21,018 nucleotides of DNA from the IMG/VR virus record IMGVR_UViG_3300024433_000074, positions 1 through 21,018 of that record, one strand, 5' to 3'. Source of the stretch: a virus. The stretch's first letter is position 1; the number at the start of each line of letters is the position of its first letter. The position numbers were made by a program, and so were the translations under genes. This document shows positions 1-17,695 of the stretch, one piece after another. The notes below the pieces were generated by a model. That model made no database searches. It was not told the DNA's origin and saw nothing but the letters and a program-made list of their open reading frames with translations.

Positions 1-1627
1 AGTCAGGAGTAGTGGCTGGATCGTAGGCAACCTGCACACCATAAGCCCTTGGTCCCTTCCTTACACTTGGGGGTCGAATGAGTTCAGCCTCTTCCAACAT
101 CTCGGAGGCTTCAGCCTTAAGCTTGGATTCAGAGAGTTTAACCGCTGGCTTCTCCGTCACGCTCTTAGCTTTCCAATCAATTCCCCTTTTTTCTAAAAGT
201 CTCCTTGCCGCCATAACGGCTTCATTATCTGGATGTCCTCTCGCTGTCCTAATAAGCGATTCTGTTCTGGTGGGTGGGCGTATTTCCCCAGATTCAACTT
301 TTTGCTTGTATTCCTTGCGAAGTTGTTCCCGTTTTTCTAATAATAGTCTGTCCTTTTCAAGTTGAATTTTTAAAAGTCTTTGTCTGGGCTTACCATAAGG
401 AATGTTTTTATGAAGTGCCGCTTCTCCTATTTCTTGTCTACTTGCACCATGGATAGCAAGATAAGTTTCCTGATCTATTACCTCTGGCTCTTTTGGGGCT
501 GCCTTCTCCGTCACGCCCTCAACCCTTTTGACAGGGGGAATTTTTTTTATTCTTTGTCCAGTCATTAAATCTACTTCACCAATTGGCAAATATCTTTCTT
601 TACTTCTAATAATAAAATCCTGTGCCCCCTTTAAGGTTTTGAAAAACTTTGGTTTGAATTTTCCCAAGATACTTTCTGAGGTAACTTGAAATTTATCATA
701 CTTGAGTGACTTAAAAATTTTGCCCTTCTTTATTCCATCAACTATTATTTCATAAACCATGTCCCCGCTTAGTTCCCCAGCTAATTCTTTTGATACATGT
801 GGGTTTTCTTTTAATGTTGGATATCTCTGAGGTATTTGCCTAATTTCTACTTTTGGTGCAGGTTCCTCCGTCACGCCCTCAGCCTTTAGCTCTTTGGCAA
901 GCTCCATCTTGGCTTTGCCGGGGACTTTCTTCTTGGGGATTTCTATTTCCGGCGGTATTTCAGTTATTGGTCTTACTTCTTCGATCCGAGGCTCTTCAAT
1001 TGGCAAACCCTTTCTTCTCTTTATCTCTTTCACGGCGGTATAAACTTTCTTACCTCCCCTTATTCCACCTTTTAGAATTGCCGTGGTAAAGAATAGACCC
1101 AGCGGATCTTCGGCTATCTGCTCAATTGCTTTCTGTCTGGCTTTTGGTGAAGAAAGAGGACTGATATATGTAGCGTAGTTCTCAAAGTTCTGCCGTCCAT
1201 ATTCAGCGAAATCAGTGACAGTTCTCAAAGCTTGACCCAAAACCTCTTTAGGCTCCCGTGCTTTACCTTCTTCTGTAAACATTACCTGTTGTGCAATATC
1301 TATCGGAAATCGAGGAAGGCTAAGAGCTTGCTTTTTGATGTTTCCCAAAATTATATCAAGTTGCTCCATGCCGGTTTTAGCTTCAGATATAGGAGTAGGA
1401 ACAGTTTCCTCTCTCCATTTCTCCAAACCTCTTTCGGCTAATCCACCGACAATTTCTTGAAGCGGTGGAAGCGCGGGAAGCTTCTGTCTTATTTTTTGCA
1501 TAAAATCCAATCTTGGAAGCTCCGGCCCTATCGGCTCTTCATACTGTCCTTCGGGTAAAGCATACTTGGCTGGATCAAATCTGGTTGGCTTTTCGTCTAA
1601 AGCATATTTTCGGGGATCAAATGGCAT
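1..1627 (-). CDS. Large internal/ejection-type protein, C-terminus beyond the left edge
   Basis: The minus-strand frame is open from an ATG at 1627 to the window edge, giving at least 542 residues with no stop, so the gene is truncated by the window. The start lies 2 nt after the preceding stop. The N-terminus carries a duplicated motif, FDPRKYAL then FDPAKYAL (residues about 3-24). The chain is Lys/Glu/Pro-rich with helical stretches (for example around residues 410-440) and no signal peptide. Three copies of a V-T-E-[EK] linker flanked by Pro/Ala occur near residues 250, 370 and 489, each encoded by the same GCGTGACGGAG string, and divide the chain into blocks of about 120 residues. As the last and largest gene after two smaller ejection-like genes, it fits a large internal virion protein delivered with the DNA. 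No enzymatic motif is recognised and the function is inferred from position only. Confidence 0.7.
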   Translation of the reverse strand, partial: MPFDPRKYALDEKPTRFDPAKYALPEGQYEEPIGPELPRLDFMQKIRQKLPALPPLQEIVGGLAERGLEKWREETVPTPISEAKTGMEQLDIILGNIKKQALSLPRFPIDIAQQVMFTEEGKAREPKEVLGQALRTVTDFAEYGRQNFENYATYISPLSSPKARQKAIEQIAEDPLGLFFTTAILKGGIRGGKKVYTAVKEIKRRKGLPIEEPRIEEVRPITEIPPEIEIPKKKVPGKAKMELAKELKAEGVTEEPAPKVEIRQIPQRYPTLKENPHVSKELAGELSGDMVYEIIVDGIKKGKIFKSLKYDKFQVTSESILGKFKPKFFKTLKGAQDFIIRSKERYLPIGEVDLMTGQRIKKIPPVKRVEGVTEKAAPKEPEVIDQETYLAIHGASRQEIGEAALHKNIPYGKPRQRLLKIQLEKDRLLLEKREQLRKEYKQKVESGEIRPPTRTESLIRTARGHPDNEAVMAARRLLEKRGIDWKAKSVTEKPAVKLSESKLKAEASEMLEEAELIRPPSVRKGPRAYGVQVAYDPATTPD

Positions 1628-1629
1628 AT

Positions 1630-2508
1630 TTATAGCTCGCTTATAATCCAGTCAATATCTTCTTCCGTCAAATGAGGATAGTCTGTCTGTAATACTTCAG
1701 TGTTAATTCTTTTAATTCCAGCATTTTGGAAAGCAGTTAAAATACTTTCTTTTGTCTCTTCTTCCTTTCCTGTTACCCTCTGTTTCTTCCTCATCATTGC
1801 TGCCGTGTCTCGATAAAACTCTATAAGCTCGTCATATTTCCCCGTTGGATCAAGAAGGTTCTCTAATTTCTGCGCTTCGTTTAAATAAGTGGTAGCAGAA
1901 GGCTTTCTACCAACATGTTCAATTCTGTCTATTTCGGGATTCCCAAAATAACCTTTCTCTGACAATCTTTGCAAATCAGCCCAGTCTTCATCAGAAGATG
2001 GATCGTAAGAAGAAAAGGGTTTGGCTGTTTTTTGAAGAATCCACTCTCTTTCAGTTAATCGGGTTATCCCCCTTCCCCTACCCCCACCCCCAAGCCCCTC
2101 ATACTTCATAGTAAAACTTCTTGGCAATTCAAAGAGTGGTTCAACAACCGTAGACGGATATTCTACCCTCCGACCCTCTGGCAAATTTGCTTGGTATACC
2201 ATGTCTTCAAGCACTTTTGTGACCTCTGGCGGCAATCCTCTTGCTGTCCCCAACTCACGGACATTCAGTCCCATTTCCGCCAATTTAAGAGGAAGCCCAA
2301 CTTCCTCCCAGAGTTTTTCTTTGTTCCTCTCTGCCTCCGATCGCTCCCATTCCATTGCTTCTCTATCTATTTGTCTACCAAGTCGTTTTAAATTAAGCTG
2401 ACTGAGAGTTTCTTCTAACTTTTCCCTCTTCTTCTCCTCTGCAAGCTCCTCCTGTTGCTGAGTGTATTGTTGAGCTCCCAACCATCCTCGTAAAAGTGAT
2501 CCAGCCAT
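1630..2508 (-). CDS. Putative internal/ejection protein with N-terminal coiled coil
   Basis: A 292-residue protein. Residues about 15-70 are rich in Glu, Lys, Gln and Arg with heptad-like spacing and look like a coiled coil. Residues about 130-150 hold a Gly/Arg-rich linker (LGGGGRGRGI), and the C-terminal half is charged and probably helical, ending in IDWIISEL. There is no signal peptide and no catalytic motif. It begins 1 nt after the stop of the preceding gene and is followed after 2 nt by the very large gene at 1627, so the three are probably translated together. Small-medium-large runs of helical proteins after the tail genes are typical of podovirus DNA-ejection proteins. That assignment rests on position and composition, not on recognised homology. 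Confidence 0.7.
   Translation of the reverse strand: MAGSLLRGWLGAQQYTQQQEELAEEKKREKLEETLSQLNLKRLGRQIDREAMEWERSEAERNKEKLWEEVGLPLKLAEMGLNVRELGTARGLPPEVTKVLEDMVYQANLPEGRRVEYPSTVVEPLFELPRSFTMKYEGLGGGGRGRGITRLTEREWILQKTAKPFSSYDPSSDEDWADLQRLSEKGYFGNPEIDRIEHVGRKPSATTYLNEAQKLENLLDPTGKYDELIEFYRDTAAMMRKKQRVTGKEEETKESILTAFQNAGIKRINTEVLQTDYPHLTEEDIDWIISEL
2068..2098 (-). other. Five-run G-rich tract, potential G-quadruplex in the coding strand
   Basis: On the minus (mRNA-like) strand there are five consecutive G runs of 4-5 bases (GGGG, GGGGG, GGGGG, GGGG, GGGGG) separated by only 3, 1, 2 and 2 bases. This meets the usual pattern for a stable intramolecular G-quadruplex. It lies inside the 292-residue protein gene and encodes the Gly/Arg linker. 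The run pattern is seen directly; folding is inferred. Confidence 0.7.
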
Positions 2509-2509
2509 A

Positions 2510-3025
2510 TTATCCCCCTAAAAACCCAGGACTATATTGCATCCCACCACCCGATAAACCTCCACCCTTCCCCTTTTTCCCCTGCATAAGCGTATAAAGC
2601 ATCCAACCTATGTCTTCTGCTGGCGGTCCTACATCGAAAGGCATAGTAGTTGTCTGCTGTCCCGTTCCCCCGACAACTGACGCTATGGCTCTCAATATAC
2701 TTGCCTCGTGTCTTTCAGTGGCTTCCCCCATCTCTCTGCCTTCTGCTGTCGTTGCTCTCATCAGTTGGGCGGTCTCCAGGCCTGATCCCGGACCCAAACC
2801 TTCGCCAAGACTTTCTCTGATGCCCTGTTTCCGTGCTCCCCATCTTGCTTCAATCGGTCTCGTTAGATAAGAAGGTGCACCTTTCCCCAATCTGCCGTAG
2901 AGCATATTAAGAAAACGTTGAGCTTCAGGACTCAATCCTCTTTCTGTTTTTTGCCCTCTTGAAGCCAGATAGCTCTGAATAGCCGATCCCGCCGCACTAA
3001 TCGCAGGTATTACCCAAGGTCCCAT
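2510..3025 (-). CDS. Putative small DNA-ejection / internal virion protein
   Basis: A 171-residue Ala/Gly-rich protein. The N-terminus (GPWVIPAISAAGSAIQSYLAS) is a mildly hydrophobic amphipathic helix rather than a classical signal sequence, since no basic n-region precedes it and no clear cleavage site follows. The middle is helical and charged (residues about 30-125), and the C-terminus is a Gly-rich tail ending SPGFLGG. A GGAGAG ribosome site lies about 9 nt before the ATG at 3025, and the gene follows the nozzle gene by 6 nt. Short proteins of this type with an AISAAGSAI-like start are common directly after tail genes in podoviruses, where they are ejected with the DNA. That is a pattern match; no enzymatic role is visible. 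Confidence 0.7.
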   Translation of the reverse strand: MGPWVIPAISAAGSAIQSYLASRGQKTERGLSPEAQRFLNMLYGRLGKGAPSYLTRPIEARWGARKQGIRESLGEGLGPGSGLETAQLMRATTAEGREMGEATERHEASILRAIASVVGGTGQQTTTMPFDVGPPAEDIGWMLYTLMQGKKGKGGGLSGGGMQYSPGFLGG

Positions 3026-3031
3026 AACTCA

Positions 3032-5725
3032 TCACTCTCCTATCTTTTTAAATTTCAATCCCACTTTACCTAACTCTAAATGACTTGATGAAGTTATCTT
3101 AAATGAGAAATTCCTCCCCAGACAATCCGCATCCAAAGGAAGACGTTTATATCGGTATCCTCCGCTTTCTGAAACCGTCTTGTTGTATCTGAGACTGTCC
3201 CCAAAATCTGTATAGAAATAAGTGGTGAAGTTCCCACTGGTCAAATAATAGTCCAGATCAAAGTATGTGAACCTTTTCCTGTCCGCTATGGAGTTGAAGT
3301 CAAAAGCTTTCGATTTGTAAGCCAGAGAAATCGCCTCACCCGTATCTGTGGTAGCTTCTCCAAATTCATAGATTAGGGTTCTATCTTGCCAATCGCTGAA
3401 AAGTAATTTTACGGTATCACTAAGAGCGGTCTGTTCCGCATAAATATTACCCCTCATACCCACTACTGTAGCCCAAGCCACCAGCTTAACATTAAAAACT
3501 ATGGTCTTGTTGCATCGCCCATAACCCCCATCGGGATAAGAAAGATAATAGTGATCTTTGTAATAACCACCCGCCGCAAGTTTTATTGGCCAGCCTTTTA
3601 TCGTTTCTATGGTCGGCTGAATTTTCTTAGATACCAAAGTCACCGTCCGTCCATCAAAAGCGTAGACTCCGGTGGTATGCAGAAACAGGATATATTTCCC
3701 CTCTACATTTACGACAGACTGGGGAGCTACACATCCGATACCCTCCGTCACCTGAACCAAATAATAATCGGTGGCAGAGTTCCAGACCAATTTATAGATA
3801 GAGTTTTCTTTGAAGATTACCAGACAATCCCTAGAGCGATCCTTGTAGCCAAGCTGGTCATCGTAGAAGGTGGCTAAGGCGGTGACTTTATCGTCCCCCC
3901 CTCCCCCAATGGGAATAAAATTATCGGGATCAAAATACGTAGGTTCGTTATCTTCAGAGAAAACGATAAATTCTTTACTACTTTGAGGATATTGATTTTT
4001 GGTAACAAAAAAAAGTCTATTTTTGTAAATTTCACAAAGTTCAGGTTGCCAAAAAACTTTTTTTAGTATTACAAAATCATCTCCTCCCGATAGGGTTAAG
4101 CTATCAAAGCGATATTGAGTTCTAATTTGTGCCAAATCATTATATGTGATGATTCTTTCTTCTCCCGCTGAAGGACCTGATGTCATTTTTATTACTCTGC
4201 CATCTCCATTCCCTACATCAGCTCCTGTAAAATCGTCTCTTATGTAATTAACACAAACAACAGAATTATCAACTGAATCCGTAGTTCCTGCCCATAAAGA
4301 ATCATAATCGAAAGCACCCACAATATAGTTAGCTTCATCCAGACCAACAGAAGCCCATTGCGAGGGAATCAGTAGAACATTATTCGTATTGCCAAAAATC
4401 ATTAAAGGTTCAGTTTGTGCACCCGTTGCATGGGTGCTTGGAGCATCACAAAGAAGATAACCAGCCCATTGGTCTGTCCGCCAATTTACATTCAGAACTT
4501 CAACATAAACCGTGCACGCGATATGAGTTTGTGAGTTGCCAGAGAACTTTTCTGCATATCCAAATTCAAATGGTTTATTCATTTCTTCATCTAAAACAAA
4601 CGGATAATCCCCCTCATGCGCTACAATGGCTTTGCCTTTGAAGGTCTCAAAATCATAATACTTGTCGTTGCTCTGAAGCCCCGTTTTGACAGAAACAAAA
4701 GTCCCAGCACCATTATAGGTTGTATCCGCCCATAGCGTTCCATTCACTCCAGCTAAAAGAATCTTACCACCATCTGAAGTGTAGTAAGGATGAAGTCCCC
4801 AGATTCTTTTACCTGCATCGAATTCAGTGGTGTTATATTTATCAAACCCTGGACGTGGCTCCAATTTCCCCGCTGTACTCCAGATAAAGTTCTGCTGCTC
4901 CGTTGCCTCGTTATCCGCAATCTTGTTGGGAAAATCTACCAGATTAAGACCACCCCTAAAATCTTGCAGAATTGCCATCGAATATTGGGATGATGCACCT
5001 TGGACTTGGCGTGGTGTCCGAAATTTCATCAACTGGTTTCTATAATCAGCTGAAGGTGAAGGTGGGGCATTAGCTAAAAGACTGGGTTGTTTGAAAGGTA
5101 TAAATGATACGCCCCGGGGATTATAGGGATTATGATAATCGGGAGCATTTACAGGGTTGGGTGTCTGAAATTGATAACCCGGTGATTGAATTTGTTTGTA
5201 GTAGTCAGGCGGATTGATAGAACCCGGACCCTGAAACTGAATTCCCTGTGGCTGATCTTCTTTTAGATAGGCGGGGGCACTGATGAGACTGGGGTTTTGA
5301 AATCGTAGCTCCTGTGGTTGGTCTCCTTTTAGATAATTAGGGGCAACAACAGGAGTCGGCTGTTTGAACCAAAATTGACTGGTTGGAGTAGTCCCCTGCT
5401 CCCTTTCAGACGGAGTTGCTGGAGAAAGAGTGGGTTCTTTGAACCAAAACTGACCAGCCGGTTCAAGCTCTGAGTCCCTTTCAGGCGGAGTTACCAAAGA
5501 AGGCGGAACAAATCTCTGCTTGGATTCAACCTTCGGCTCTATCGGTTGAATTTCTATGGGTGTAGGTTTCGGCTTGGGTGGCTGAATGGGCAGGATAATC
5601 TTGTCCTCAATTATCTTTGCGGGTTCTGGTTGCTGTTCTTCCTCATCGTCAATATCCTGCGCCCAAACACCGAATCCCAAAACAAAGAAAATGAGTCCCA
5701 TTAGAAAAACCTTAATACATTTCAT
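3032..5725 (-). CDS. Tail nozzle-like protein with signal peptide and F-x-x-P repeats
   Basis: An 897-residue protein in four parts. Residues 1-22 form a Sec-type signal: basic start (MKCIK), hydrophobic core, and a GVWA cleavage-type end. Residues 23-70 are acidic then Pro-rich. Residues 72-238 hold eight F-x-x-P motifs (F72, 95, 120, 142, 164, 186, 211, 235) at 22-25-residue spacing. From about 255 the chain begins GGLNLVDFPNKIADNEA and then E-x-R-P-G-F. This opening is typical of podoviral tail nozzle proteins (T7 gp12-like role) built on beta-propellers, and the remainder is beta-rich. The mature part has eight Cys. The ATG overlaps the preceding stop as ATGA, with GAGGT upstream. A nozzle protein would close the tail tube. 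A signal peptide on one is unexpected, and it is not an overlap artefact because only 4 nt are shared with the upstream gene. Confidence 0.8.
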   Translation of the reverse strand: MKCIKVFLMGLIFFVLGFGVWAQDIDDEEEQQPEPAKIIEDKIILPIQPPKPKPTPIEIQPIEPKVESKQRFVPPSLVTPPERDSELEPAGQFWFKEPTLSPATPSEREQGTTPTSQFWFKQPTPVVAPNYLKGDQPQELRFQNPSLISAPAYLKEDQPQGIQFQGPGSINPPDYYKQIQSPGYQFQTPNPVNAPDYHNPYNPRGVSFIPFKQPSLLANAPPSPSADYRNQLMKFRTPRQVQGASSQYSMAILQDFRGGLNLVDFPNKIADNEATEQQNFIWSTAGKLEPRPGFDKYNTTEFDAGKRIWGLHPYYTSDGGKILLAGVNGTLWADTTYNGAGTFVSVKTGLQSNDKYYDFETFKGKAIVAHEGDYPFVLDEEMNKPFEFGYAEKFSGNSQTHIACTVYVEVLNVNWRTDQWAGYLLCDAPSTHATGAQTEPLMIFGNTNNVLLIPSQWASVGLDEANYIVGAFDYDSLWAGTTDSVDNSVVCVNYIRDDFTGADVGNGDGRVIKMTSGPSAGEERIITYNDLAQIRTQYRFDSLTLSGGDDFVILKKVFWQPELCEIYKNRLFFVTKNQYPQSSKEFIVFSEDNEPTYFDPDNFIPIGGGGDDKVTALATFYDDQLGYKDRSRDCLVIFKENSIYKLVWNSATDYYLVQVTEGIGCVAPQSVVNVEGKYILFLHTTGVYAFDGRTVTLVSKKIQPTIETIKGWPIKLAAGGYYKDHYYLSYPDGGYGRCNKTIVFNVKLVAWATVVGMRGNIYAEQTALSDTVKLLFSDWQDRTLIYEFGEATTDTGEAISLAYKSKAFDFNSIADRKRFTYFDLDYYLTSGNFTTYFYTDFGDSLRYNKTVSESGGYRYKRLPLDADCLGRNFSFKITSSSHLELGKVGLKFKKIGE
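5012..5512 (-). repeat. Eight degenerate F-x-x-P coding repeats
   Basis: Within the nozzle-like gene the motif F-[VKQR]-[PETNGQ]-P recurs eight times (FVPP, FKEP, FKQP, FQNP, FQGP, FQTP, FKQP, FRTP) with 22-25 residues between phenylalanines. The middle copies share a following P-x-Y about nine to eleven residues later (APNY, APAY, PPDY, APDY). The repeat is clear in protein but degenerate in DNA, which suggests an old duplication kept by selection. Confidence 0.75.
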
Positions 5726-6453
5726 CTGGGCACTACCTCTTTGGCTATGGTTACGTCAACCGGGCGGTTCTCCAAGATGGCTTTCAAGTCCAGAATTTCG
5801 TTGATGGCTATTTGTTTGATAAAATTAGCCACCTCGTGCTCACCCTGTCTTTGTTTGCAGAGATACAGAGCATAAAGCACTACTTCGTTTTCAAAGCCAG
5901 GGTTTAGATAGGAAGTGTCTGCCCACAATGGTGCGCAAGAACCAAAAATCCATATAGCTGTGCTTTCTATTGGTGCCGGATAAACGCCGAGTCTAACGGT
6001 TGCACCTGGCGAGTATTGTTTATACCAGTATCTGATTGGTTCTGAAGTAGCAATTTTCTTTTGGGCTACATCTTTTGCTTTAATTTCCACCAAGGCATAA
6101 GTCGTATCCTTTAACCAGATATTCGTGATCTTAGTAATTGGCGTGCCAGAGGAAAAAATAGAAGAGATGTCAAATGGAGGAACTTTAAAAGCTTCACCAG
6201 TAGCAAGGCGAGCGCTGTCTCCTACATAATGTTCCATCCTAAAATTCCCCACTTGATCGCATAGCGTAGCACACTTTTTCATTCCTATTGCCAAAAAATC
6301 CCACCGTATGCTATCGGGGAAAAATGGATCCGTTTCATCGTTGAGAAGCCGTTTAAGTCGACCATCAAGTGAAGCCCCTTCAACGGCGATTGCAGGACTT
6401 GTTAAAGACAGGTAGATTACAAAAATAAACATTACCATCAATACCTTTTTCAT
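5722..6453 (-). CDS. Exported adaptor-like tail protein, copy 4 of the array
   Basis: A 243-residue protein. Residues 1-23 are a textbook Sec signal: MKKVLM start, long hydrophobic core, and PAIA before VEG. The mature part is helical at the start, has a central beta region with an R-L-G-V-Y-P-A-P motif (about residues 165-175), then a helical C-terminal part with L-Y-A-L-Y and the ending VDVTIAKEVVPR. The same order (P..Y/W, then x-Y-P, then helical pair, then DVTIA-like tail) occurs in the two preceding genes, so they look like tandem duplicates of a podoviral head-tail adaptor or tail-ring protein. GGAGG lies 7 nt before the ATG. Four Cys are present in the mature chain. Adaptor identity is a moderate inference; the signal peptide is well supported. 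Confidence 0.72.
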   Translation of the reverse strand: MKKVLMVMFIFVIYLSLTSPAIAVEGASLDGRLKRLLNDETDPFFPDSIRWDFLAIGMKKCATLCDQVGNFRMEHYVGDSARLATGEAFKVPPFDISSIFSSGTPITKITNIWLKDTTYALVEIKAKDVAQKKIATSEPIRYWYKQYSPGATVRLGVYPAPIESTAIWIFGSCAPLWADTSYLNPGFENEVVLYALYLCKQRQGEHEVANFIKQIAINEILDLKAILENRPVDVTIAKEVVPR

Positions 6454-6462
6454 ATCAGCCTC

Positions 6463-7170
6463 CTATTTGATTATTTTGGGTGCAATTGTTACATCTGGTT
6501 GAACATTAAAAAGTTGCTCTCGCAATATGGCAATTCCTTTAGCATAGGAATTGTAAGCCTGTGCTGCTGCCTGATAATTTTCTATTCTGAGATAAGCAAT
6601 GAAAAGAGCATAATCCAGCCAGACCTCTTCAAAGATAGGCGAAGTAATAATGTTGGTTGTAGCAAAACCACATTTTACCATAGTGACATAAAGTGTTTCC
6701 GTGTTTGCCGACGTCGGATAGACAGAAATGAAAGTTGAATCTTTGTGGCGGAAAAAGGAATAATAAGATAGCGGGACATCGGTGTCCAGATGACGGTGTG
6801 CTAAATCTTTCAAGGAATGCTCCAACAGAGACCTATGTTTACCACCACTTGTCAAAATTACAGACGTTACGAACATTATGTCCAAAGAACCGCCAGCTAC
6901 ATCGTATAGTGGCACAAATTGTTGATTCGGAAACACGACTTTTCGACTGCCTATCTCGTATGTCCCGCTGAGTCCATGATTCAATACCGCTATCCTTCCC
7001 ATGATAATACATGCTTGCAAATCGGCATCCTCAAAATCCGGGGAACTTTGTGCCAATCTATATCCAAGTTGCTTTTTCAACTCAGTGTAACTTATAGCCT
7101 GGCTCTGATTGGCTAAAAGCAACAAAAAACAGATGCCCACCAGAACCAAAATCCACAATTTTAGTTTCAT
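6463..7170 (-). CDS. Exported adaptor-like tail protein, copy 3 of the array
   Basis: A 235-residue protein from the ATG at 7170, chosen because AGGAGG lies 6 nt upstream; a TTG at 7188 would add six residues that include that ribosome site. Residues 1-25 are a signal peptide (MKLKLWILVLV core, NQSQA before IS). The mature part contains a P-L-S-Y-Y element, an I-S-V-Y-P motif, a W-L-D-Y-A-L-F helix, and ends QPDVTIAPKIIK, closely matching the end of the next gene. It lies between the other two copies with gaps of 9 and 14 nt. Two Cys remain after cleavage. It is probably a ring protein of the tail or head-tail joint, with the same caveat as its neighbours. Confidence 0.72.
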   Translation of the reverse strand: MKLKLWILVLVGICFLLLLANQSQAISYTELKKQLGYRLAQSSPDFEDADLQACIIMGRIAVLNHGLSGTYEIGSRKVVFPNQQFVPLYDVAGGSLDIMFVTSVILTSGGKHRSLLEHSLKDLAHRHLDTDVPLSYYSFFRHKDSTFISVYPTSANTETLYVTMVKCGFATTNIITSPIFEEVWLDYALFIAYLRIENYQAAAQAYNSYAKGIAILREQLFNVQPDVTIAPKIIK

Positions 7171-7184
7171 CTTTTCCTCCTTTG

Positions 7185-7880
7185 TCAAGGTTTAATTTCT
7201 TGCCGACCTATAAAAACATCATATTGTTTTCCTTCAAATTTCAGCTTAATCCCCAATCGCTTCATGTAGCTATCATAATAACGATCAGAGGCACCCCTCT
7301 TTCCATCTCTTAGAAGTGCTCGATAGACCACATAGTCGATAATCAGCGGTCGATAGCAATAGGGGATGTCAGTGGTATCGGTAGCTGTATCCATATAAGC
7401 CGCCTCAGCCCCATAGATCACCAGAAAGGTATCTTTGACCACCGGTGGAGGAAAGAACCCAATTATCGCATTCTCACCTTTCCCTATCTGCCAAAAAACT
7501 TGAGGCTCAAAATCCGTAACTGGCACTTTACCTATGTCTGGTGTTGGAATAAAAGTCAAAGCCCGCTTTCCCACGGGTCGTAAGGCAAAGAGTGTAACTA
7601 ACCGGATAAAATCAGTGTTAGCACTATAACTTATGACTCCCTCAACCCAAATTAAGGTGTCTAACTTTTCAATAATACCATATCCGGAAAGATCAGCACA
7701 AGCCTCGTTGATCCAATTATTCCACACAGAGTCGGGATAAAAAGGATGAGTTGATAGAACAGACTGATCCTGTGCCGCTCTCCGAAAATCCGATAGAGTC
7801 AAAAGTTGAGTGGCAACCGAATAGGTGATAGTCAATAGCCAACAGCCAAAAAGCAAAATCAAAAAAGGACACTTTTTCAT
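7185..7880 (-). CDS. Exported adaptor-like tail protein, copy 2 of the array
   Basis: A 231-residue protein. Residues 1-24 form a signal peptide with basic start, hydrophobic core and a Y-S-V-A end. After that come L-S-D-F-R-R, H-P-F-Y-P-D-S-V-W and a D-L-S-G helix. Next is the F-E-P-Q-V-F-W ... I-I-G-F-F-P-P-P pattern, then a helical C-terminal part with I-I-D-Y-V-V-Y-R-A and a final QYDVFIGRQ element. This is the organisation of podoviral adaptor (gp4/gp11-type) proteins, plus a signal. LFGC inside the hydrophobic core resembles a lipobox but is followed by more hydrophobic residues, so signal peptidase I is more likely. It starts 3 nt after the upstream stop with only a weak GAAGAAG site, so coupling to the previous gene is likely. 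Confidence 0.72.
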   Translation of the reverse strand: MKKCPFLILLFGCWLLTITYSVATQLLTLSDFRRAAQDQSVLSTHPFYPDSVWNNWINEACADLSGYGIIEKLDTLIWVEGVISYSANTDFIRLVTLFALRPVGKRALTFIPTPDIGKVPVTDFEPQVFWQIGKGENAIIGFFPPPVVKDTFLVIYGAEAAYMDTATDTTDIPYCYRPLIIDYVVYRALLRDGKRGASDRYYDSYMKRLGIKLKFEGKQYDVFIGRQEIKP

Positions 7881-7883
7881 TTT

Positions 7884-8588
7884 TTATCTTCTTCGCAAAC
7901 CCTGAAAGGTTCTCATCGTTCTTAACTGCCGTTTCTGTTCTGTGGAAATATCTATTTTAATTTTTGGATGAGTAACGGGAGAATCATTTTCCCTCATCAG
8001 CTCTCTCCCTGACAAATATTCCCTTAGATAATCCCTGGCAAGCTGAGCTATGCTCATGCGTTCAGCGGAATCTTTTATGGTGATCGCCTGACCCGTTAGA
8101 TGACGAGCCATAATCCCGTTGACAAAAACCATCGGATTGGGATAAAGGAAAACATCTCCGGCACTGAAAGTCTTTTTGTAAAAGTATGTTATGGATTCAA
8201 GGTTGGTGCCTGTGCATGGGTATATGATTGCACTCCACGTATGGTCGTTGATTCTTTCCTTTGGCACAAAACAAACCGGTGACTCGCTTACAATTTGACC
8301 AAAAGCAAGGCTGTAAAAAGCATCCATGTTAGGATACCTTTTTAGTTTGACCATGTTTTCACCATAATATATCTCAACAACCTTAGATAAATCTTTATCC
8401 TTTCCTGAAAGGTTATATTCAATCGTATTTGTCTCAAGAGTCAGCTCATCCGATCTTATAAGCCAACTCCAATTGTGGAAGTCATAAACGTCCCTTGAGA
8501 CGATCTCTAAATGTTCGTTAAGCTTCCGGGCAACGACCTCTGAAGGATCTCCCAAAATACTGTCCTGGATGTATTTTGTTATGTTCAT
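7884..8588 (-). CDS. Putative head-tail adaptor, cytoplasmic copy 1 of the array
   Basis: A 234-residue protein without a signal peptide. The helical N-terminus (ARKLNEHLEIVSRDVYDFHNW) and the Asp/Glu-rich first domain, the E-S-P-V-C-F-V-P ... I-I-Y-P pattern, and a long C-terminal helix with A-R-H-L-T-G-Q-A-I match the general plan of phage adaptor proteins that bind under the portal. It ends in a basic tail, FQGLRRR. The three following genes share the plan but carry signals, so this copy probably docks directly to the portal. No Shine-Dalgarno sequence is visible in the 20 nt before the ATG; instead a GC-rich hairpin at 8603-8648 precedes it. Homology is inferred from pattern only. Confidence 0.72.
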   Translation of the reverse strand: MNITKYIQDSILGDPSEVVARKLNEHLEIVSRDVYDFHNWSWLIRSDELTLETNTIEYNLSGKDKDLSKVVEIYYGENMVKLKRYPNMDAFYSLAFGQIVSESPVCFVPKERINDHTWSAIIYPCTGTNLESITYFYKKTFSAGDVFLYPNPMVFVNGIMARHLTGQAITIKDSAERMSIAQLARDYLREYLSGRELMRENDSPVTHPKIKIDISTEQKRQLRTMRTFQGLRRR

Positions 8589-9123: not shown

Positions 9124-10347
9124 TTAATTCTGGTAACCGGTGATCCCACTGGCAAAAGTATGGGATGTTATCACATCCCACCTGAACGTGGCACAAGAGA
9201 TATATTCCTCTTTCCGGCTCAAAGAATCGGGCAACTGCCTATTCTTCAAAAGCTTCTCGTCGAGTATTCCCAGGCTGGTCAAAAGGGGCATATAGGTTAT
9301 ATTGGCGGGATCGGCGACAACGAAACTTGAGCCAAAAAGATTATCTGGTGCATCGTCAGGATCACCAGACAGTTTTCTTTCCGGTAGTATCATTAGTTGC
9401 TTACCACCAGGCAAATCTAACCTGCTAACCCTCATGTTGAGGTATTCGTCCTCATTCATGATGATTACCTTCTCCCTCTTCCACTCAGCCAGGGCGTAAA
9501 GCATCATAGGACAGAACAATCCGAGCTTTTTGGATGAGCCAACCTTGAAAGCCCTTCGCATCGTCTCCAAGAATCTCTTGAGGGTGATAACCCCGTTGAT
9601 CGGATCGAGAACCCCGCCCCTGCGAACTATGGCGGGAATTAGTCCCTCTCCTATGGGTATGCCGAGGGTTGTATCCCAATGTCTTGCGCCAAACAGAGCG
9701 TTGTTGACTTTATCGCTTAAGTGGTCAATCCATTTCTCTATCAACTGATCTGTCCAGGGATCGCCAGTGTAGGTCTTTTGGCTGGTGAAAAACAATCCCC
9801 CACCGATTGCGGTGCGAATCAGTGTCACGACGTTGTATTCTTCACTTGGTATCCGGTTCATTATGGTGGGGAGAGAACTATCTTCTGCGGAAGCATTGAA
9901 CTGAATTTTGATCTTGGTGTCATCCGGCCATACACCCAAACTGCTTGTCCCATAATTTCTGGTGCAGGTAAAAGTCGTATCCGTGGGAACCGTGAGAACC
10001 CGTATCTGCTCAAAGTCGGACAAATCCGCAGCCCATATCTGGATTATATCATCCGGCTTCAAGGGACCTACGGCATCCACGGTGATGGTTGTAGTAGCCA
10101 GAACAATACTACTGGCAAGCTGAAGGAACTCTCCCTCTGCCTGTTTTTCGTAACAAAAGACCTTCGGAGAAATGGATGGCTTTCTCGATATTTCCTTGCC
10201 CTGCAAGGCGAAAAGACTCTTACCCATCTCTACCGCATCTTCGTGGTATTTGATCTTTTTGTGTATCTCTAACATGATCATACCTTCCGGGAACGTCTGA
10301 CCACTTATTATCCCGGAGAGTAAGTCACTTGCATAAGTTGGGGGCAT
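9124..10347 (-). CDS. Major capsid protein, HK97-fold type (SU10-like)
   Basis: A 407-residue protein in the expected position directly after the scaffold candidate. The N-terminal part includes E-I-H-K-K-I-K-Y-H-E-D. Residues about 75-150 form a beta-rich insertion with a VDAVGPLKPDDIIQI strand pair and a TCTRNYGTSS turn. A long helix with W-T-D-Q-L-I-E-K-W and the helical segment R-F-L-E-T-M-R-R-A-F follow, then a C-terminal beta part (SSFVVADPANITYMPL, FRWDVITSHTFASG). The R-N-Y-G-T and later R-I-P-S-E-E-Y arrangement resembles the SU10-type major capsid family. Length and helix/strand order fit the HK97 fold. GAGGAG lies 7 nt before the ATG. No protease is seen nearby and there is no long delta-domain, so maturation cleavage is not evident. 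Confidence 0.82.
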   Translation of the reverse strand: MPPTYASDLLSGIISGQTFPEGMIMLEIHKKIKYHEDAVEMGKSLFALQGKEISRKPSISPKVFCYEKQAEGEFLQLASSIVLATTTITVDAVGPLKPDDIIQIWAADLSDFEQIRVLTVPTDTTFTCTRNYGTSSLGVWPDDTKIKIQFNASAEDSSLPTIMNRIPSEEYNVVTLIRTAIGGGLFFTSQKTYTGDPWTDQLIEKWIDHLSDKVNNALFGARHWDTTLGIPIGEGLIPAIVRRGGVLDPINGVITLKRFLETMRRAFKVGSSKKLGLFCPMMLYALAEWKREKVIIMNEDEYLNMRVSRLDLPGGKQLMILPERKLSGDPDDAPDNLFGSSFVVADPANITYMPLLTSLGILDEKLLKNRQLPDSLSRKEEYISCATFRWDVITSHTFASGITGYQN

Positions 10348-10357
10348 TTCTATCTCC

Positions 10358-11179
10358 TCATAGTTTAGTTATGCCCTCCCCATAATTTTTGACATCTTGG
10401 GAAGTGGCACCTTTGGTTGCTTTCTTGCGCGGTGATATTCCCAACTGTCTTAGCTTCGCCAGCCGCTTTGCGTCAAAAGGCTTTAATCCCTCCCTGAGTT
10501 TTTCGGGATTTTTCTCTTTGGAGAGCTTAAACAGGTAAAGATCATAAGCTTCATCAAAGAGCAGAGCATCTTCTATGTCATCCGCTGACATCCCACTGAC
10601 TATCCCAGGGAGAAGTTTGATGAGTTTTGGTTTGAGGCTCCTGTCGATGTCAATATCTTTTTCCTTCATTATCCGCCGGAACTCATCAAACCGCATCTCG
10701 ACACGCATGTTGCCAATTTCGCTTTCAAGGTCTTTGACTTTCGCATCATACTCTTCGCCCTTTGCTTTCTTTGGTGATAAAGCAGAAGGTGTCTTTTCCT
10801 TGATTTGATCCTTGACTGCATTGATAAATTGATGTGGTGTCATCTTAAACGCAGAGGCAAGCTCTTTGACTATCGGGAACGTCATCTTGTCTTCGTCGAT
10901 GAACTTCTTGAAGTTCTCCGCTAACTCCTTAACAGTTTTGAACTGAGGAAAACCCAACTCTTTCAGTTGGTTTAGTTCATCCTCTTCCAGGAGAGCGTCT
11001 AATTCCTCTTTCGAAAGCCCTTCTAACTCCTTTTTCTTCCTCTCCTCTTCCTCTTCCTCTTCCTCTCTTTTCTTCTCCTCTTCCTCTTCGAGAAGGGCTT
11101 CCTCTTCCTCTTTTTTCTTTTGCTCTTCCTCTTCGAGAAGAGCTTGTTTCTCTTCTTCAGAGAGATTATCGTTTGGCAT
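10358..11179 (-). CDS. Putative capsid scaffolding protein
   Basis: A 273-residue, highly charged protein. Residues 8-60 are almost purely Glu/Lys/Leu, including a 15-residue tandem duplication. The middle is helical (for example KTVKELAENFKKFIDEDK), with a second coiled-coil stretch at about 145-175 (KVKDLESEIGNMRVEM). The C-terminus is basic (SPRKKATKGATSQD). An acidic helical body with a basic capsid-binding tail directly upstream of the major capsid gene (10-nt gap) is the standard layout for phage scaffolds, which guide procapsid assembly and then leave or are degraded. The start overlaps the preceding gene by 14 nt. Identity rests on composition and position. Confidence 0.72.
   Translation of the reverse strand: MPNDNLSEEEKQALLEEEEQKKKEEEEALLEEEEEKKREEEEEEEERKKKELEGLSKEELDALLEEDELNQLKELGFPQFKTVKELAENFKKFIDEDKMTFPIVKELASAFKMTPHQFINAVKDQIKEKTPSALSPKKAKGEEYDAKVKDLESEIGNMRVEMRFDEFRRIMKEKDIDIDRSLKPKLIKLLPGIVSGMSADDIEDALLFDEAYDLYLFKLSKEKNPEKLREGLKPFDAKRLAKLRQLGISPRKKATKGATSQDVKNYGEGITKL
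11057..11146 (-). repeat. Two-copy 45-bp tandem repeat in a polypurine coding tract
   Basis: Residues 12-26 and 27-41 of the scaffold candidate repeat as QALLEEEEQKKKEEE then EALLEEEEEKKREEE, an exact 45-bp period at imperfect identity. It sits inside an almost uninterrupted purine tract on the coding strand (roughly 11030-11160), a sequence type prone to slippage. Confidence 0.75.
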
Positions 11180-11992: not shown

Positions 11993-12625
11993 TTAGTAAG
12001 TGTCCACTGACTTTATCCAGATTCGCACTTTTGTATGGTCGTAAAGTGTGGTATCGGGAGTATAACAACCTACCAAGCAAGCCGCAGTATCAGGCCAAAT
12101 CGTCCTGATAATTCTGCATCTGGTATGGGTGCCCCAAATCCACTGGCTTGGTCCAACGATGAAACTATCTGGATGGGCATAGTATCTGCGAAGCGTGAGA
12201 TCCTCGACATCAGCAAATGCATCGGCTTTGATGGTGTTAACCGTGGGAGTAGCATCAGTATGATTACTGGTAGTCTGTAATCCGACAGACAAAGTTTCGG
12301 TGCTGTCAACCCCGAACATCGAGTCTTGGTGAATTATCTGAAAATGTATAAGATACCCATCTGCATTGATGGGCTGAGGCATCCAAACGGTATAAGCCGT
12401 GTCAACAATCCTCGTGCTTGCTTCAGCCGAATCACACCCACCGCAAGTGTCCGCATAGAGTGTGTCTGTTGAAGCAAAGGGACCCCAGAACATATACCAG
12501 TCGACAATATGCCACGGAGCCTGATAAGTTTGCTTAACCATCCCATCATACATGTGACCGGCAAATATGCCACCACCCCACAAGATCAAAACCACCACCA
12601 ACGTTACTATCAAATTTCTTTTCAT
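11993..12625 (-). CDS. Membrane-anchored or secreted beta-rich protein of unknown role
   Basis: A 210-residue protein. MKRN is followed by a hydrophobic helix (residues 5-22, VTLVVVLILWGGGIFA) that may be cleaved after IFA or kept as an anchor. The rest is beta-rich with many Thr/Asp/Trp residues and five Cys (C61-x-x-C64 and three near the C-terminus), which suits an oxidising compartment. An AAGGAG site precedes the ATG. It is the first complete gene after the terminator at 12748-12794 and starts the capsid half of the late operon. Its family is not recognised. It could be a virion decoration protein, a superinfection-exclusion factor or a lysis-related protein. The membrane segment is clear, the role is not. 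Confidence 0.65.
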   Translation of the reverse strand: MKRNLIVTLVVVLILWGGGIFAGHMYDGMVKQTYQAPWHIVDWYMFWGPFASTDTLYADTCGGCDSAEASTRIVDTAYTVWMPQPINADGYLIHFQIIHQDSMFGVDSTETLSVGLQTTSNHTDATPTVNTIKADAFADVEDLTLRRYYAHPDSFIVGPSQWIWGTHTRCRIIRTIWPDTAACLVGCYTPDTTLYDHTKVRIWIKSVDTY

Positions 12626-13583: not shown

Positions 13584-15545
13584 TTAAATATTCTTTGGTT
13601 TAAACCCCTGCGCCATCTGTTGCGCCAGATCAATTTCATCTTCAGGTAACGATGTCTTTCCACCCGCCTGTGCAGGCATATTCGGCGATTTCTCTTTCTC
13701 TTGAAGCATAGCCATGTGTCCCTGCAAATGTTGGGCAACAATAGGATGATCCTTATACTTCATGTGCACCGGGATATGAATCTCATGCGGTTCTTCAGGC
13801 AACACAGGGACGAAGGTTCCGTCCTTAACCATCATCATATTTTCCTTTTCAGGATACAACAACTTATCCTTTGGATCAGGCACAAGCTTTTCCACCTCTG
13901 TAAACTGAACTAATCTAAAATGTTTTCTTCGGAGTTCAACCGGATCAATAAAAGGATCGTCTTTGTAAATCTCTGCAAGCTTTAACATCTCCTGCCTTTG
14001 GATCGGTTGGTTCCAGACATCGTTAAGTTGTATCTGAATGTCTACATCCCCTCCATCTATGTCACGCATATCCAGCTCTACCGTCTCTTTGGTATCGTAG
14101 AGTTCAATGGGTGTCTTTTCAAGATAAAGCCGCCCTATATCATAGAATCTTTTAAGAATTGTAATCAGCCCCGTATCGACTATTATATTACTTTCAAACT
14201 TCCTCAAAGTATCCGTGACACCTTTCAAAACCATAATTCCCGTAGCCAACTGCTCTCTGGGAGGACTAACTCCGGCAGAGAATTGATTCGAGCCAAAAAT
14301 ATATTGAATCTCATTAGTCAGATTGTTCATCTCTAAATAAGACTCTTTGCTTACGTCTGCGGTTTTTATGGGCTCAAATTTCGATCCCTTCGATACCTTA
14401 ATCACCTCTCCAGACTTTGCCTGAATATAATTGGGAAATTTTTTGTTCTGATCGTCTGTGTAGTAAGGGGGACCCAAAATTCTTGCCAAAGCCATCAGTT
14501 GGCGATTCCTGATATAAAACTTTTGCAACAGAGCATTCATCGAAGCCCCAATTTTGCTGACCGGATATATATAATCATCATCTTCAGGGAAAATAAATGT
14601 TGATATAAAACTCTCCGCCGCAGGATAGTGCCACTCATTTTCGTCAAATTGAATGAGCACCTCCCGATTCGCAAGCGTGCCAATTACGTCCACAAACTTT
14701 GGGATTCCGTTTGGATCATCCTCATTGGGAATGGGTATCCATCCCCGGAAATGCAGAAGCTCAATTGGGATGTTATAATCCTTCATTATCCCAGACCGAA
14801 AGTCCGTAGAGGTAAAAAACTCCTCCCAATCGGTTTTAGGAAAAGTGGTGTTTTTAAGCTTATCTATGTCCTCTTTGGTTTCCAGCCTATCGTATTTTCT
14901 CTCTTCACCCTTTTCCATGTCCTCAAGCAAATCCAGAAGCGATACCTTGTCTTGTTGGATCGCCCATTTCCTTCTCAGATTATCTGGATCGGGAAAATGT
15001 CTTCGGAGGTTACAAGAAACATAAGTCGGACAGAGGAATTTATTCTCAGACACAATGTCAGAATACCCCAAAGGAGAGTTCTCCTCCATCCGTAAGTTTC
15101 TCTTCAACACGTTCAGCGGAATCTCAGTCACATCAACGTAACCCACACCTACGCCAAAACGGATAGCACTGCTCAGCGTCGGAGTATATGAACGCTTGAA
15201 TTTCGAGCGATAAGCAGCAGTCTTGAGATAAGAGGTGATATTTCTAAGTTTTCTTTCCGAAGTGTTTTGCCCTCCGCTACAACGAAAAAAGGGATCGAGG
15301 GCAAAAAGAATATCGTAAAGCTGAGCCAAAAGCTCATTCACACCGACATGAGCATCTGCGGGGAGCAAGCCCGGGTTTTCTTCTTCCAAGTCTGCCCCTA
15401 ACTTCTCAGGTAGCTCTATCTCATACAGCTTTTGCAGATAATTACAAAGCTCATAAAACTCACTGTATCTGTCCTTTGAATACTTGTAGCAGTCAACGAT
15501 GATGTTGATAACTTCTTTTTCCTGAGTTTCAGTAAGCTCTATCAT
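13584..15545 (-). CDS. Portal protein
   Basis: A 653-residue protein directly after the large terminase, overlapping it as ATGA, which is the usual place for the portal. Residues about 1-60 are helical. Residues 90-140 include LFALDPFFRC and a Ser/Lys/Arg helix, followed by the VGVGYVDVTEIPLNVLKRN strands. Around residue 330 there is Y-I-Y-P-V-S-K-I-G-A-S-M-N-A-L-L-Q, and later a long helical stem region (NELMRE-like QYIFGSNQFSAGVSPPREQLA). The C-terminal 60 residues are His/Gln/Pro-rich and probably disordered. Portals form the dodecameric DNA channel at the head vertex and bind terminase and adaptor. Length fits podovirus portals. Identification rests on position, length and overall pattern. 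Confidence 0.78.
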   Translation of the reverse strand: MIELTETQEKEVINIIVDCYKYSKDRYSEFYELCNYLQKLYEIELPEKLGADLEEENPGLLPADAHVGVNELLAQLYDILFALDPFFRCSGGQNTSERKLRNITSYLKTAAYRSKFKRSYTPTLSSAIRFGVGVGYVDVTEIPLNVLKRNLRMEENSPLGYSDIVSENKFLCPTYVSCNLRRHFPDPDNLRRKWAIQQDKVSLLDLLEDMEKGEERKYDRLETKEDIDKLKNTTFPKTDWEEFFTSTDFRSGIMKDYNIPIELLHFRGWIPIPNEDDPNGIPKFVDVIGTLANREVLIQFDENEWHYPAAESFISTFIFPEDDDYIYPVSKIGASMNALLQKFYIRNRQLMALARILGPPYYTDDQNKKFPNYIQAKSGEVIKVSKGSKFEPIKTADVSKESYLEMNNLTNEIQYIFGSNQFSAGVSPPREQLATGIMVLKGVTDTLRKFESNIIVDTGLITILKRFYDIGRLYLEKTPIELYDTKETVELDMRDIDGGDVDIQIQLNDVWNQPIQRQEMLKLAEIYKDDPFIDPVELRRKHFRLVQFTEVEKLVPDPKDKLLYPEKENMMMVKDGTFVPVLPEEPHEIHIPVHMKYKDHPIVAQHLQGHMAMLQEKEKSPNMPAQAGGKTSLPEDEIDLAQQMAQGFKPKNI

Positions 15546-16966
15546 ATCCCTTCCTTCTTTCGCAGGTGGTCAAACCATTGCTTGCGGGGTCGATACTGAG
15601 CTTCGACAAACCAACCTGGAGAAGTAGATAAATCATCAACGTGGATATAGTTCACAAAAAGATACCGGTCTGTATCTGCAACATCCGCATAGGGGTGATT
15701 CGGTTCATGGGGTTCATCTTCACCTTCTCTTAAAAAATATCCCCCTAAGTATGCCTCTTCAGTAATTTGGCAAGAGGGATCAATAATAAAAGACGGAATA
15801 CCATCATCTCTAACAAGCAAGGCTCTCCGAACCAAATTTATACCATCGTTGACAAACGTTCGCTGGCATTTAAAGTTTTCGATTCCCTTAGCCTCCAATA
15901 TCTCAATGGAGCATTGTTCGGATTTATCGTTTTTTTGCAATCCCGCAGGATCCCCGCAATCCTCAAAGTCCTCATTACCAAATCTCTCGTAACTCATCGC
16001 CAAAACCTTATCGGCAAACTGGTCAATAGTAATGTTGATTCCAATCAATTCTGCTAATTTATAAATTCTATCGTTGTCCCGTGAAATTTGATACCATCCA
16101 CACGCTGGCGATCTATACCCAAAATCCCAGCTTCGGATAATCGGTATTTCTCTGGAGAACTGTAAAGGCTCTTTCGCCATGTGGATGTCGGATTTGAAAA
16201 TAGCATAGACTGGATCACCTTCAGCCACAAAAGCCCACTCTCCGTAAAGAAAAGCCTTTTTCCACTGTTCAGGTTGACGCTCTAAATCTTCAATGTAACC
16301 AGGTGGAAGGTTTTCCTTGTTGTCATAAGTTGACGTGTGAATCACAAGGTCTGTGTTAGGATTAAATTCTTTCTTGAAACGCCGATGTAGCCAATGATAT
16401 TGTCCGGGAGGGTTAGGGGTAAGCATACCACAAAAGGGAACCCCTGGCTTGGACAACCTACCTGAAAGTTGACGAAAAATCATCTCAGGGACCTCTTCAG
16501 CTTGGTCAATCCAAAACCAGCCCAATTCATAAGAACCAAACTTCTTATATTCCTCTGCTCCCCGAAACATAATATGGCTGGGTTTGTTAGGGTCTCTGGT
16601 TTTCAGCCAAAGATCATGTGTGCTTTCATTCCACTTCAAAACCAACGGGCAAGTCTTGGGAATAATGCCGAAAAAGGTCTGCATAGTGCTATCACGTAAA
16701 GTTGTATAGTCTTTTCGACAAATCAATCCCACATTTCCAGGATAGTCTAAAGAAAGGAAAAAAGATTTGAAACTGGCGGCAAGGCTTTTACCACTACGAA
16801 AAGCACCAAGAAAAGCCTCATATTTTTTCTGCGATTGAATAAATTGGAGTTGCTTCGGTTTGGGATCGAAAGTCTTAAACCGTTGCTCAGCTTCTATCCA
16901 CCCGAAGTCTACTCCTGGAATCTTTATCCTTTTCGCTTCTACTTCCGCTATCGCTTCGTTCATCAT
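15542..16966 (-). CDS. terL: Terminase large subunit
   Basis: Counted from the ATG at 16966 (474 residues). Walker A is G-A-F-R-S-G-K-S at about 54-61, Walker B with catalytic Glu is W-F-W-I-D-Q-A-E-E at about 150-158, and the coupling motif L-T-P-N-P-P is at about 182-187. A nuclease domain follows with Asp in S-W-D-F-G (about 281), D-C-G-D-P-A-G (about 337-343) and a C-terminal A-D-V-A-D-T-D-R-Y. It is the ATP-driven motor and nuclease that packages DNA through the portal. The frame is open to 17125, and a start at 17026 (AGGA upstream) would add a hydrophobic segment resembling a signal peptide. This is rejected because it would lie wholly inside the small-subunit gene and the motor must stay in the cytoplasm. 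The preferred start overlaps the small subunit by 80 nt. Confidence 0.93.
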   Translation of the reverse strand: MMNEAIAEVEAKRIKIPGVDFGWIEAEQRFKTFDPKPKQLQFIQSQKKYEAFLGAFRSGKSLAASFKSFFLSLDYPGNVGLICRKDYTTLRDSTMQTFFGIIPKTCPLVLKWNESTHDLWLKTRDPNKPSHIMFRGAEEYKKFGSYELGWFWIDQAEEVPEMIFRQLSGRLSKPGVPFCGMLTPNPPGQYHWLHRRFKKEFNPNTDLVIHTSTYDNKENLPPGYIEDLERQPEQWKKAFLYGEWAFVAEGDPVYAIFKSDIHMAKEPLQFSREIPIIRSWDFGYRSPACGWYQISRDNDRIYKLAELIGINITIDQFADKVLAMSYERFGNEDFEDCGDPAGLQKNDKSEQCSIEILEAKGIENFKCQRTFVNDGINLVRRALLVRDDGIPSFIIDPSCQITEEAYLGGYFLREGEDEPHEPNHPYADVADTDRYLFVNYIHVDDLSTSPGWFVEAQYRPRKQWFDHLRKKEGI

Positions 16967-17378
16967 TCCCCAACACACCAGGAATACTATTAAAAATTTG
17001 AATAACATTTGTCTTGGCACTGCCATTAGAATCCTGCTTTTCTGATTTGATGGCATTAAGAATATCACCAGCGGCTTTGCGTGCTGTTTCTTGATTAAAA
17101 ACAGATCGCCAGTTACTTTCATCAATCAAACTCAGTAACATCTTGGCAGCTTTAACGCTGGCACGCTCCAAGATTCGCTGTGCCCTCTCTGAATCAGCCT
17201 TGCCCAGTCTTTGAATTTCCCCTTGAATTTCTGGCTTCTTAAACCACCGATCCCCTGTCTTGACGCTAATATTACATTTCTTCGTTATTTCTTCATTAGT
17301 CAACTCATCCTCATAACGAAGCTTAGCGAACTCCAACTGAGAAGCAGTAAGTATCTTTTTTGGGTCTTTTTCCGTCAT
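16887..17378 (-). CDS. terS: Terminase small subunit
   Basis: A 163-residue protein directly before the large subunit. Residues about 10-55 hold a helix-turn-helix (LTASQLEFAKLRYEDELTNE, ITKKCNISVKTGDRWFKKP), typical of small terminases that recognise the packaging site. Residues about 55-115 are helical, fitting the oligomerisation core, and the C-terminus is a charged Ser/Arg/Asp tail that overlaps the large-subunit start. The ATG lies 4 nt after the T-tract of an intrinsic terminator. The only GGAGG is in the terminator loop, about 18 nt upstream, so initiation is unusual and may depend on read-through or folding. Confidence 0.85.
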   Translation of the reverse strand: MTEKDPKKILTASQLEFAKLRYEDELTNEEITKKCNISVKTGDRWFKKPEIQGEIQRLGKADSERAQRILERASVKAAKMLLSLIDESNWRSVFNQETARKAAGDILNAIKSEKQDSNGSAKTNVIQIFNSIPGVLGNDERSDSGSRSEKDKDSRSRLRVDRS

Positions 17379-17486: not shown

Positions 17487-17515
17487 ACTCTACGCAAGCA
17501 AATTTAATTTGTCAA
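17487..17515 (-). promoter_or_regulatory. Sigma-70-type late promoter
   Basis: On the minus strand TTGACA (17515-17510), a 17-nt spacer and TAGAGT (17492-17487) match the -35/-10 consensus at 6/6 and 4/6 with ideal spacing. The predicted start is at about 17481. The -35 box lies in the last codons of the 63-residue membrane protein gene. It would drive terminase and all genes to the left. Confidence 0.75.
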
Positions 17516-17695
17516 GAGAAATCTTCGTTTTTTTTCACACCCCCGCTCTACGTATTTTCTAACCTTTTTAACCCATTCTTCTGTTCTTCTTTTTTCATAG
17601 CCCGCATCATATCCCACCCAATAACACAACTTACACGCAATCCAGACAGCCAAGCCGAGTGCAAGTAGAATTCCGATTATGCTAAAGAGGCTCAT
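17504..17695 (-). CDS. Small single-helix membrane protein
   Basis: A 63-residue protein starting with MSLFSIIGILLALGLAVWIA, a clear transmembrane helix (residues about 3-26), then GYDAGYEKRR and a strongly basic C-terminal half. With a short N-terminus and a Lys/Arg-rich tail, it is probably inserted with the C-terminus in the cytoplasm. The start overlaps the YopX-type gene as ATGA. Small phage membrane proteins of this form can serve in lysis, exclusion or membrane anchoring, but no specific family is recognised. It is the last gene before the late promoter, whose -35 box overlaps its end. Confidence 0.62.
   Translation of the reverse strand: MSLFSIIGILLALGLAVWIACKLCYWVGYDAGYEKRRTEEWVKKVRKYVERGCEKKRRFLLTN

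Follow-up and report, generated by a model that had tools for sequence, protein, structure and literature searches.

Four consecutive tail genes on a 21-kb fragment of an uncultivated virus, encoding three adaptor-like ring proteins and a nozzle protein, begin with Sec-type signal peptides, and their retention in a diverged relative supports the view that these signals on distal tail proteins are real and selected. Their placement exactly on the outer rings and the nozzle suggests a tail that is made outside the cytoplasm, unlike in the tailed phages used for comparison. The window, i.e., the whole stretch of 21,018 nucleotides analyzed here, holds a single operon on the minus strand in the order TerS, TerL, portal, scaffold, capsid, adaptor 1, three adaptor-like genes, nozzle and ejection-like genes, the last of which continue past the left end (Table 1).

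Signal peptides on four consecutive tail proteins

Signal peptides were called with a home-made rule asking for an uncharged hydrophobic 11-mer with a mean Kyte-Doolittle value of at least 2.4, a net positive charge before it and small residues at -3/-1. This rule is strict, since among E. coli proteins it flagged 0/57 cytosolic, 2/18 membrane and 2/6 exported ones. All four tail proteins of the window are flagged with scores of 2.75-3.41, and they display the features of Sec/signal peptidase I substrates, namely a basic n-region, an uncharged h-region and small residues at -3 and -1. Applied to 13 other phages (T7, SU10, crAss001 and Cellulophaga phi38:1 included), the same rule flagged only one of 130 virion-region proteins (Fisher P ~4e-7) and, hence, the four signals are more than chance would give. 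The hydrophobicity of the signals (2.5-3.4) exceeds that of most cleaved E. coli signals tested and resembles that of uncleaved anchors. Additionally, the net charge of +1 to +2 in the early mature part of the adaptors is slightly unfavourable for export.

The N-termini, given here up to the predicted cleavage site and followed by the first two mature residues, read MKKCPFLILLFGCWLLTITYSVA before TQ in adaptor 2, MKLKLWILVLVGICFLLLLANQSQA before IS in adaptor 3, MKKVLMVMFIFVIYLSLTSPAIA before VE in adaptor 4 and MKCIKVFLMGLIFFVLGFGVWA before QD in the nozzle protein. That four consecutive tail genes start in this way had been proposed from the letters of the DNA, and it was confirmed, all four N-termini being found on the minus strand. 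The accompanying claim that the signals are no read-through artefacts held as well, and they are not artefacts of assembly or start-codon choice either: Shine-Dalgarno motifs precede adaptors 3 and 4 in both this phage and its relative, the nozzle ATG overlaps the stop codon of the preceding gene by 4 nt, and the signals are retained in the relative. Adaptor 3 starts at ATG 7170, which is preceded by AAAGGAGG, and TTG 7188 is not the start. Equally borne out was the absence of signals from the head proteins (capsid, scaffold, portal, adaptor 1) and from the ejection-like proteins. The pattern is one of signals on the parts predicted to hang below adaptor 1, which is the last protein on the head side, and none on the parts in or on the head.

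A hydrophobic, signal-like N-terminus in the TerL frame was rejected as an artefact; it lies upstream of the likely start, inside the overlap with the TerS frame. The N-terminus of the 210-aa protein encoded between portal and scaffold is even more hydrophobic than those of the four tail proteins and had not been listed in the sequence-only reading. Positions 17504-17695 encode a short membrane protein. In MW202637, the phage with the nearest TerL, a 146-aa gene following the capsid gene (L003:20886-21326) has a clear signal-like N-terminus.

Table 1 Features of the window and their signal status
Feature	Positions	Strand	Length	Signal peptide	Remarks
Adaptor/ring protein 2	7185..7880	-	231 aa	residues 1-23 (7812-7880)	
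Adaptor/ring protein 3	6463..7170	-	235 aa from ATG 7170	residues 1-25 (7096-7170)	
Adaptor/ring protein 4	5722..6453	-	243 aa	residues 1-23 (6385-6453)	
Nozzle protein	3032..5725	-	897 aa	residues 1-22 (5660-5725)	Pro/Gln-rich extension, residues 23 to ~248 (~4982-5659); nozzle domain, residues ~249-897
Adaptor 1-like protein	7884..8588	-	234 aa	none	assigned by position and size
Protein of no known family	11993..12625	-	210 aa	strong N-terminal signal or anchor	between portal and scaffold
Protein after nozzle	2510..3025	-	171 aa	none	49% identical in the relative G001; within shared tail block
Ejection-like protein	1630..2508	-	292 aa	none	assigned by position; counterpart by place in G001 is a 298-aa gene
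Large ejection-like protein	2..1627	-		none	cut by end of the window
Major capsid protein	9124..10347	-		none	assigned by position and a weak SU10_MCP match
Scaffold-like protein	10358..11179	-		none	
Portal	13584..15545	-		none	phrog_332, E=1.6e-5
Large terminase (TerL)	15542..17125	-			PF04466, E=1e-14; true start probably ~16966

Adaptor and nozzle identity of the signal-bearing proteins

Adaptor 2 matches the SU10_adaptor family (PF24175, E=5e-14) with residues 28-210 aligned to profile positions 2-179, and its counterpart in the relative, G001, does so from residue 26 at profile position 2 (E=9e-10). For adaptor 3, the G001 protein reaches 28.3 bits (cut-off 27), its match running from residue 27 at profile position 2, while the protein of the window scores under the cut-off. 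An AlphaFold2 model of the latter (pLDDT 70) is predicted to have the adaptor fold of helices and a beta-sandwich; every one of its best matches is a phage adaptor or a ring protein (Z up to 13.9), and its residues 23-27 align to residues 1-2 of the PDB adaptor chains among these best matches. Adaptor 4 gives no direct PF24175 match and is linked to the family only through its profile match with adaptors 2 and 3. Together with adaptor 1, these three paralogous ring genes lie in one tail operon. Neither adaptor 2 nor the nozzle gave a related entry when the PDB was searched by sequence.

The adaptors of SU10 type (PF24175) and those of T7 (gp11), N4, KHP30 and GP4 share the fold and the domain limits of the mature chain and, in signal-less marine adaptors, the start Met aligns with the predicted mature N-terminus. 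Since the Pfam domain, the signal-less homologues and the PDB structures all begin at this point, the signal is a clean addition to the adaptors. Unlike adaptors which start at the domain, adaptors 2-4 carry 22-25 extra N-terminal residues forming the signal, and they do so in both phages. Distant homologues thus do start further in and without a signal, a result that goes against the sequence-only reading, whereas the sole close relative keeps all four signals, in agreement with it; hence, the signal is to be regarded as a lineage-specific addition and not as a wrong start.

By hhalign, seven nozzles without signals match the nozzle protein (probability 98.5, E=2.6e-15); these begin at about its residue 250, and tblastn gives matches to stabilization/head-closure proteins of P22 type. 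Its nozzle domain is homologous to the P22 gp10-type stabilization/head-closure/nozzle proteins, but these begin at the nozzle domain, while the protein of the window adds the signal and a Pro-rich extension of ~225 residues before it. The structure model of the nozzle (pLDDT 33) was excluded from the evidence. Within the Pro/Gln-rich extension (4982-5659), degenerate FWFKQPTP-like repeats can be recognized; the extension is much shorter in G001.

One tail block in two phages

The relative, G001 (IMGVR_UViG_3300021511_000001), comprises 40,549 bp with a 124-bp terminal direct repeat. It is temperate, encoding an integrase and a repressor-like ORF, and also has an M15-peptidase-like endolysin. 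Adaptors 2-4 and the nozzle are 61-65% identical between the two phages (65% for adaptor 2, 63% for adaptor 4), and all four proteins of G001 have a signal. The signals themselves share only 33-48% identity compared with 62-68% for the mature chains, with a higher dN in the signals; nevertheless, none of the four alignments shows a change of the Ala at -1, and in a drift simulation to equal divergence all four signals survived with P ~4e-4. As the signals diverged faster than the mature chains and yet were all kept, their occurrence in the window is not due to chance.

TerL, portal, capsid and adaptor 1 show no detectable similarity between the two phages. Since head genes and adaptor 1 are dissimilar while adaptor 2 through nozzle are 61-65% identical, adaptor 2 is the first gene of the shared block, whose upstream border towards adaptor 1 coincides with the point where the export signals begin. 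The shared block is larger than the exported set alone, because the signal-less 171-aa gene downstream of the nozzle is also common to both phages. From these comparisons, one tail block appears to serve two unrelated heads. In G001, the gene at the place of adaptor 1 matches PF24175 with E=1.2e-5, just under the cut-off, and lacks a signal; the same holds for the portal, scaffold, capsid and ejection-like proteins of this phage. G001 has terminal repeats and no further adaptor or nozzle gene among its ORFs and, therefore, the four signal-bearing genes must be its tail, if a tail exists. A signal is also present on a tailspike-like beta-helix protein (1187 aa, L015:4715-8275) and on a nearby 377/382-aa protein (L015:3580-4710). 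The tailspike-like protein additionally carries a lipobox-like LIGC motif. Adjoining its gene, L015:8288-8848 encodes an exported lipoprotein with an OmpA domain (PF00691, E=1.5e-20), possibly a moron or a peptidoglycan tether, and directly upstream of the lysis genes L015:1474-1971 encodes an exported 166-aa protein with no family assigned that looks beta-barrel-like by eye. The integrase of G001 is nearest (29-32%) to integrases of Marinimicrobia, LCP-89 and Stahlbacteria, which by sequence affinity may give a hint, but only a hint, to the host.

IMG/VR scans with the adaptors, the nozzle, the 171-aa gene and the G001 spike identified G001 as the only close relative, and a genome scan with A1 found no relative. 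Matches of the G001 spike in L096-L099 were rejected as relatives, being short and located inside other tail genes without signals. A signal was absent from all 31 SU10_adaptor proteins examined in phages of three phyla, and equally from adaptors in the Marinimicrobia, the Stahlbacteria phylum, and the marine phage contigs and isolates examined. A tail-profile search in Marinimicrobia, the Stahlbacteria phylum, LCP-89 and one further phylum gave distant nozzles only, and their readable starts lacked signals. In total, no signal-bearing adaptor was present among ~60 others examined, SU10-type and other podoviral adaptors alike, in contrast to the window and G001. With the arrangement seen in these two phages only, the trait is rare and lineage-specific within what was searchable. 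A contig from a genome of the same phylum as a Stahlbacteria MAG (G151:C89) resembles the window in having an adaptor region, a large nozzle and three further genes, the last of them for a large ejection-like protein, but its adaptor-region genes and nozzle lack a signal. A fibre-like gene at the end of this contig (L068 end / L066 start) carries a signal peptide. The large ejection-like proteins of the window (2-1627), L002:13876-17901 and L067/L068 of G151 have a repeated N-terminal motif in common (FDPxKYAL / LDFEKLD / INFExFD).

The even number of cysteines in the mature chains had been put forward as fitting disulfides. The counts in the window are indeed 2, 2, 4 and 8, but those in G001 are 2, 2, 3 and 8, and the cysteines of adaptor 2 occupy different positions in the two phages. 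Moreover, the tail barrel of crAss001 contains disulfides (PMC10172136), although its ring proteins lack signals. The disulfide argument, and with it the use of even counts in favour of export, was dropped on these grounds.

Where the tail may be assembled

Judging from the sequence of their N-termini and the selection on it, the four proteins are very probably targeted to Sec, and with good confidence they are parts of the virion tail. Cleavage of the signals is likely, given the invariant Ala and mature N-termini which match the starts of ordinary adaptors. For the subsequent steps, the sequence-only reading had offered four options, of which tails assembled in the periplasm and joined to heads at lysis would fit best, as a plausible but tentative choice. 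The four proteins would form the distal tail of a short-tailed phage, with three rings stacked under adaptor 1 and the nozzle at the tip. Guided by its Sec signal, each of them would cross the inner membrane and lose the signal through cleavage by signal peptidase I at the conserved Ala, which would leave a mature chain that begins as an ordinary adaptor does. Rings and nozzle, in G001 together with the tailspike-like protein, would then fold and assemble in the periplasm, apart from the heads. The latter would form and take up their DNA in the cytoplasm, with the signal-less portal and adaptor 1 closing them. Opening of the inner membrane by the holin at lysis would then let the heads meet the preformed tails and be joined to them at the adaptor 1/adaptor 2 interface. 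We infer such a two-compartment assembly, with actual translocation and cleavage, periplasmic assembly and joining at lysis, at a level of confidence somewhat short of an even call. Slightly less likely still is the full picture, in which a tailed phage fills its heads with DNA in the cytoplasm and completes its tails in the periplasm until lysis brings the two together, and in which the exported tail block could move from one head type to an unrelated one. As a counterpoint, post-lysis joining of large heads and tails would have to beat dilution.

The main rival is a membrane-tethered assembly, in which uncleaved signals anchor the subunits in the inner membrane, tails assemble there and are met by heads docking from the cytoplasmic side, either ahead of lysis or while it proceeds. 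The high N-terminal hydrophobicity, within the range of E. coli anchors, speaks for it, but the Ala at -1 never varies in the four proteins although the signals are only 33-48% identical, the residues at -3 are small or aliphatic and the c-regions are polar (NQSQA, SPAIA), which makes this rather unlikely. The same cleavage-like sites, together with textbook Sec signals having charged n-regions, weigh against hydrophobic N-termini that are retained in the virion and form a ring of fusion-like helices, inserting into a host membrane when the genome enters. Twelvefold rings would indeed present dense hydrophobic clusters, and the hydrophobic character is conserved; however, capture by Sec/SRP during synthesis is to be expected and ~225 Pro-rich residues separate the nozzle signal from the nozzle domain, leaving this explanation with a low probability.

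Just as improbable is a role of the exported proteins other than, or in addition to, that of virion parts, with display on the surface of infected cells or lysogens, e.g., for superinfection block or as surface machinery. This would suit the temperate G001 with its exported OmpA-domain lipoprotein and 166-aa protein, but it is opposed by the predicted adaptor fold, the adaptor and nozzle families, the gene order of a tail operon and the lack of other tail genes in G001. Chance hydrophobic N-termini or wrong start codons, finally, are of the kind seen in the TerL frame, and signal-less distant homologues exist. Against such an origin, all four signals are kept in two diverged phages where drift alone would seldom preserve them, ribosome-binding motifs precede adaptors 3 and 4 in both, and only one of the 130 phage control proteins was flagged; it is thus highly improbable.

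Assembly of tailed phages is taught as cytoplasmic and finished before lysis. Virion proteins with Sec signals that are assembled at the membrane are familiar from filamentous phages (Inoviridae), namely pIII and pVIII, but these are unrelated proteins of an unrelated virion, with no DNA-packaged head and no lysis. Among tailed phages, the barrel of crAss001, in which five rings arise from four paralogous ring proteins (PMC10172136), is alike in having several paralogous ring proteins below the portal and a tip protein at the end, an arrangement that the genes predict for the window. It differs from the window in that its rings lack signals and nevertheless contain disulfides (PMC10172136). 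The adaptor/nozzle family and the multi-ring arrangement are already known, and the new element is the export signal; nothing in the literature searched, a partial selection with few subscription journals, was found to describe adaptors or nozzles bearing Sec signals. If the preferred reading of periplasmic tails is true, tail building would not be confined to the cytoplasm, the joining to heads could come late, and the adaptor 1/adaptor 2 boundary would represent a natural module border for head-tail exchange. It further predicts mature N-termini in virions as well as export of a reporter.
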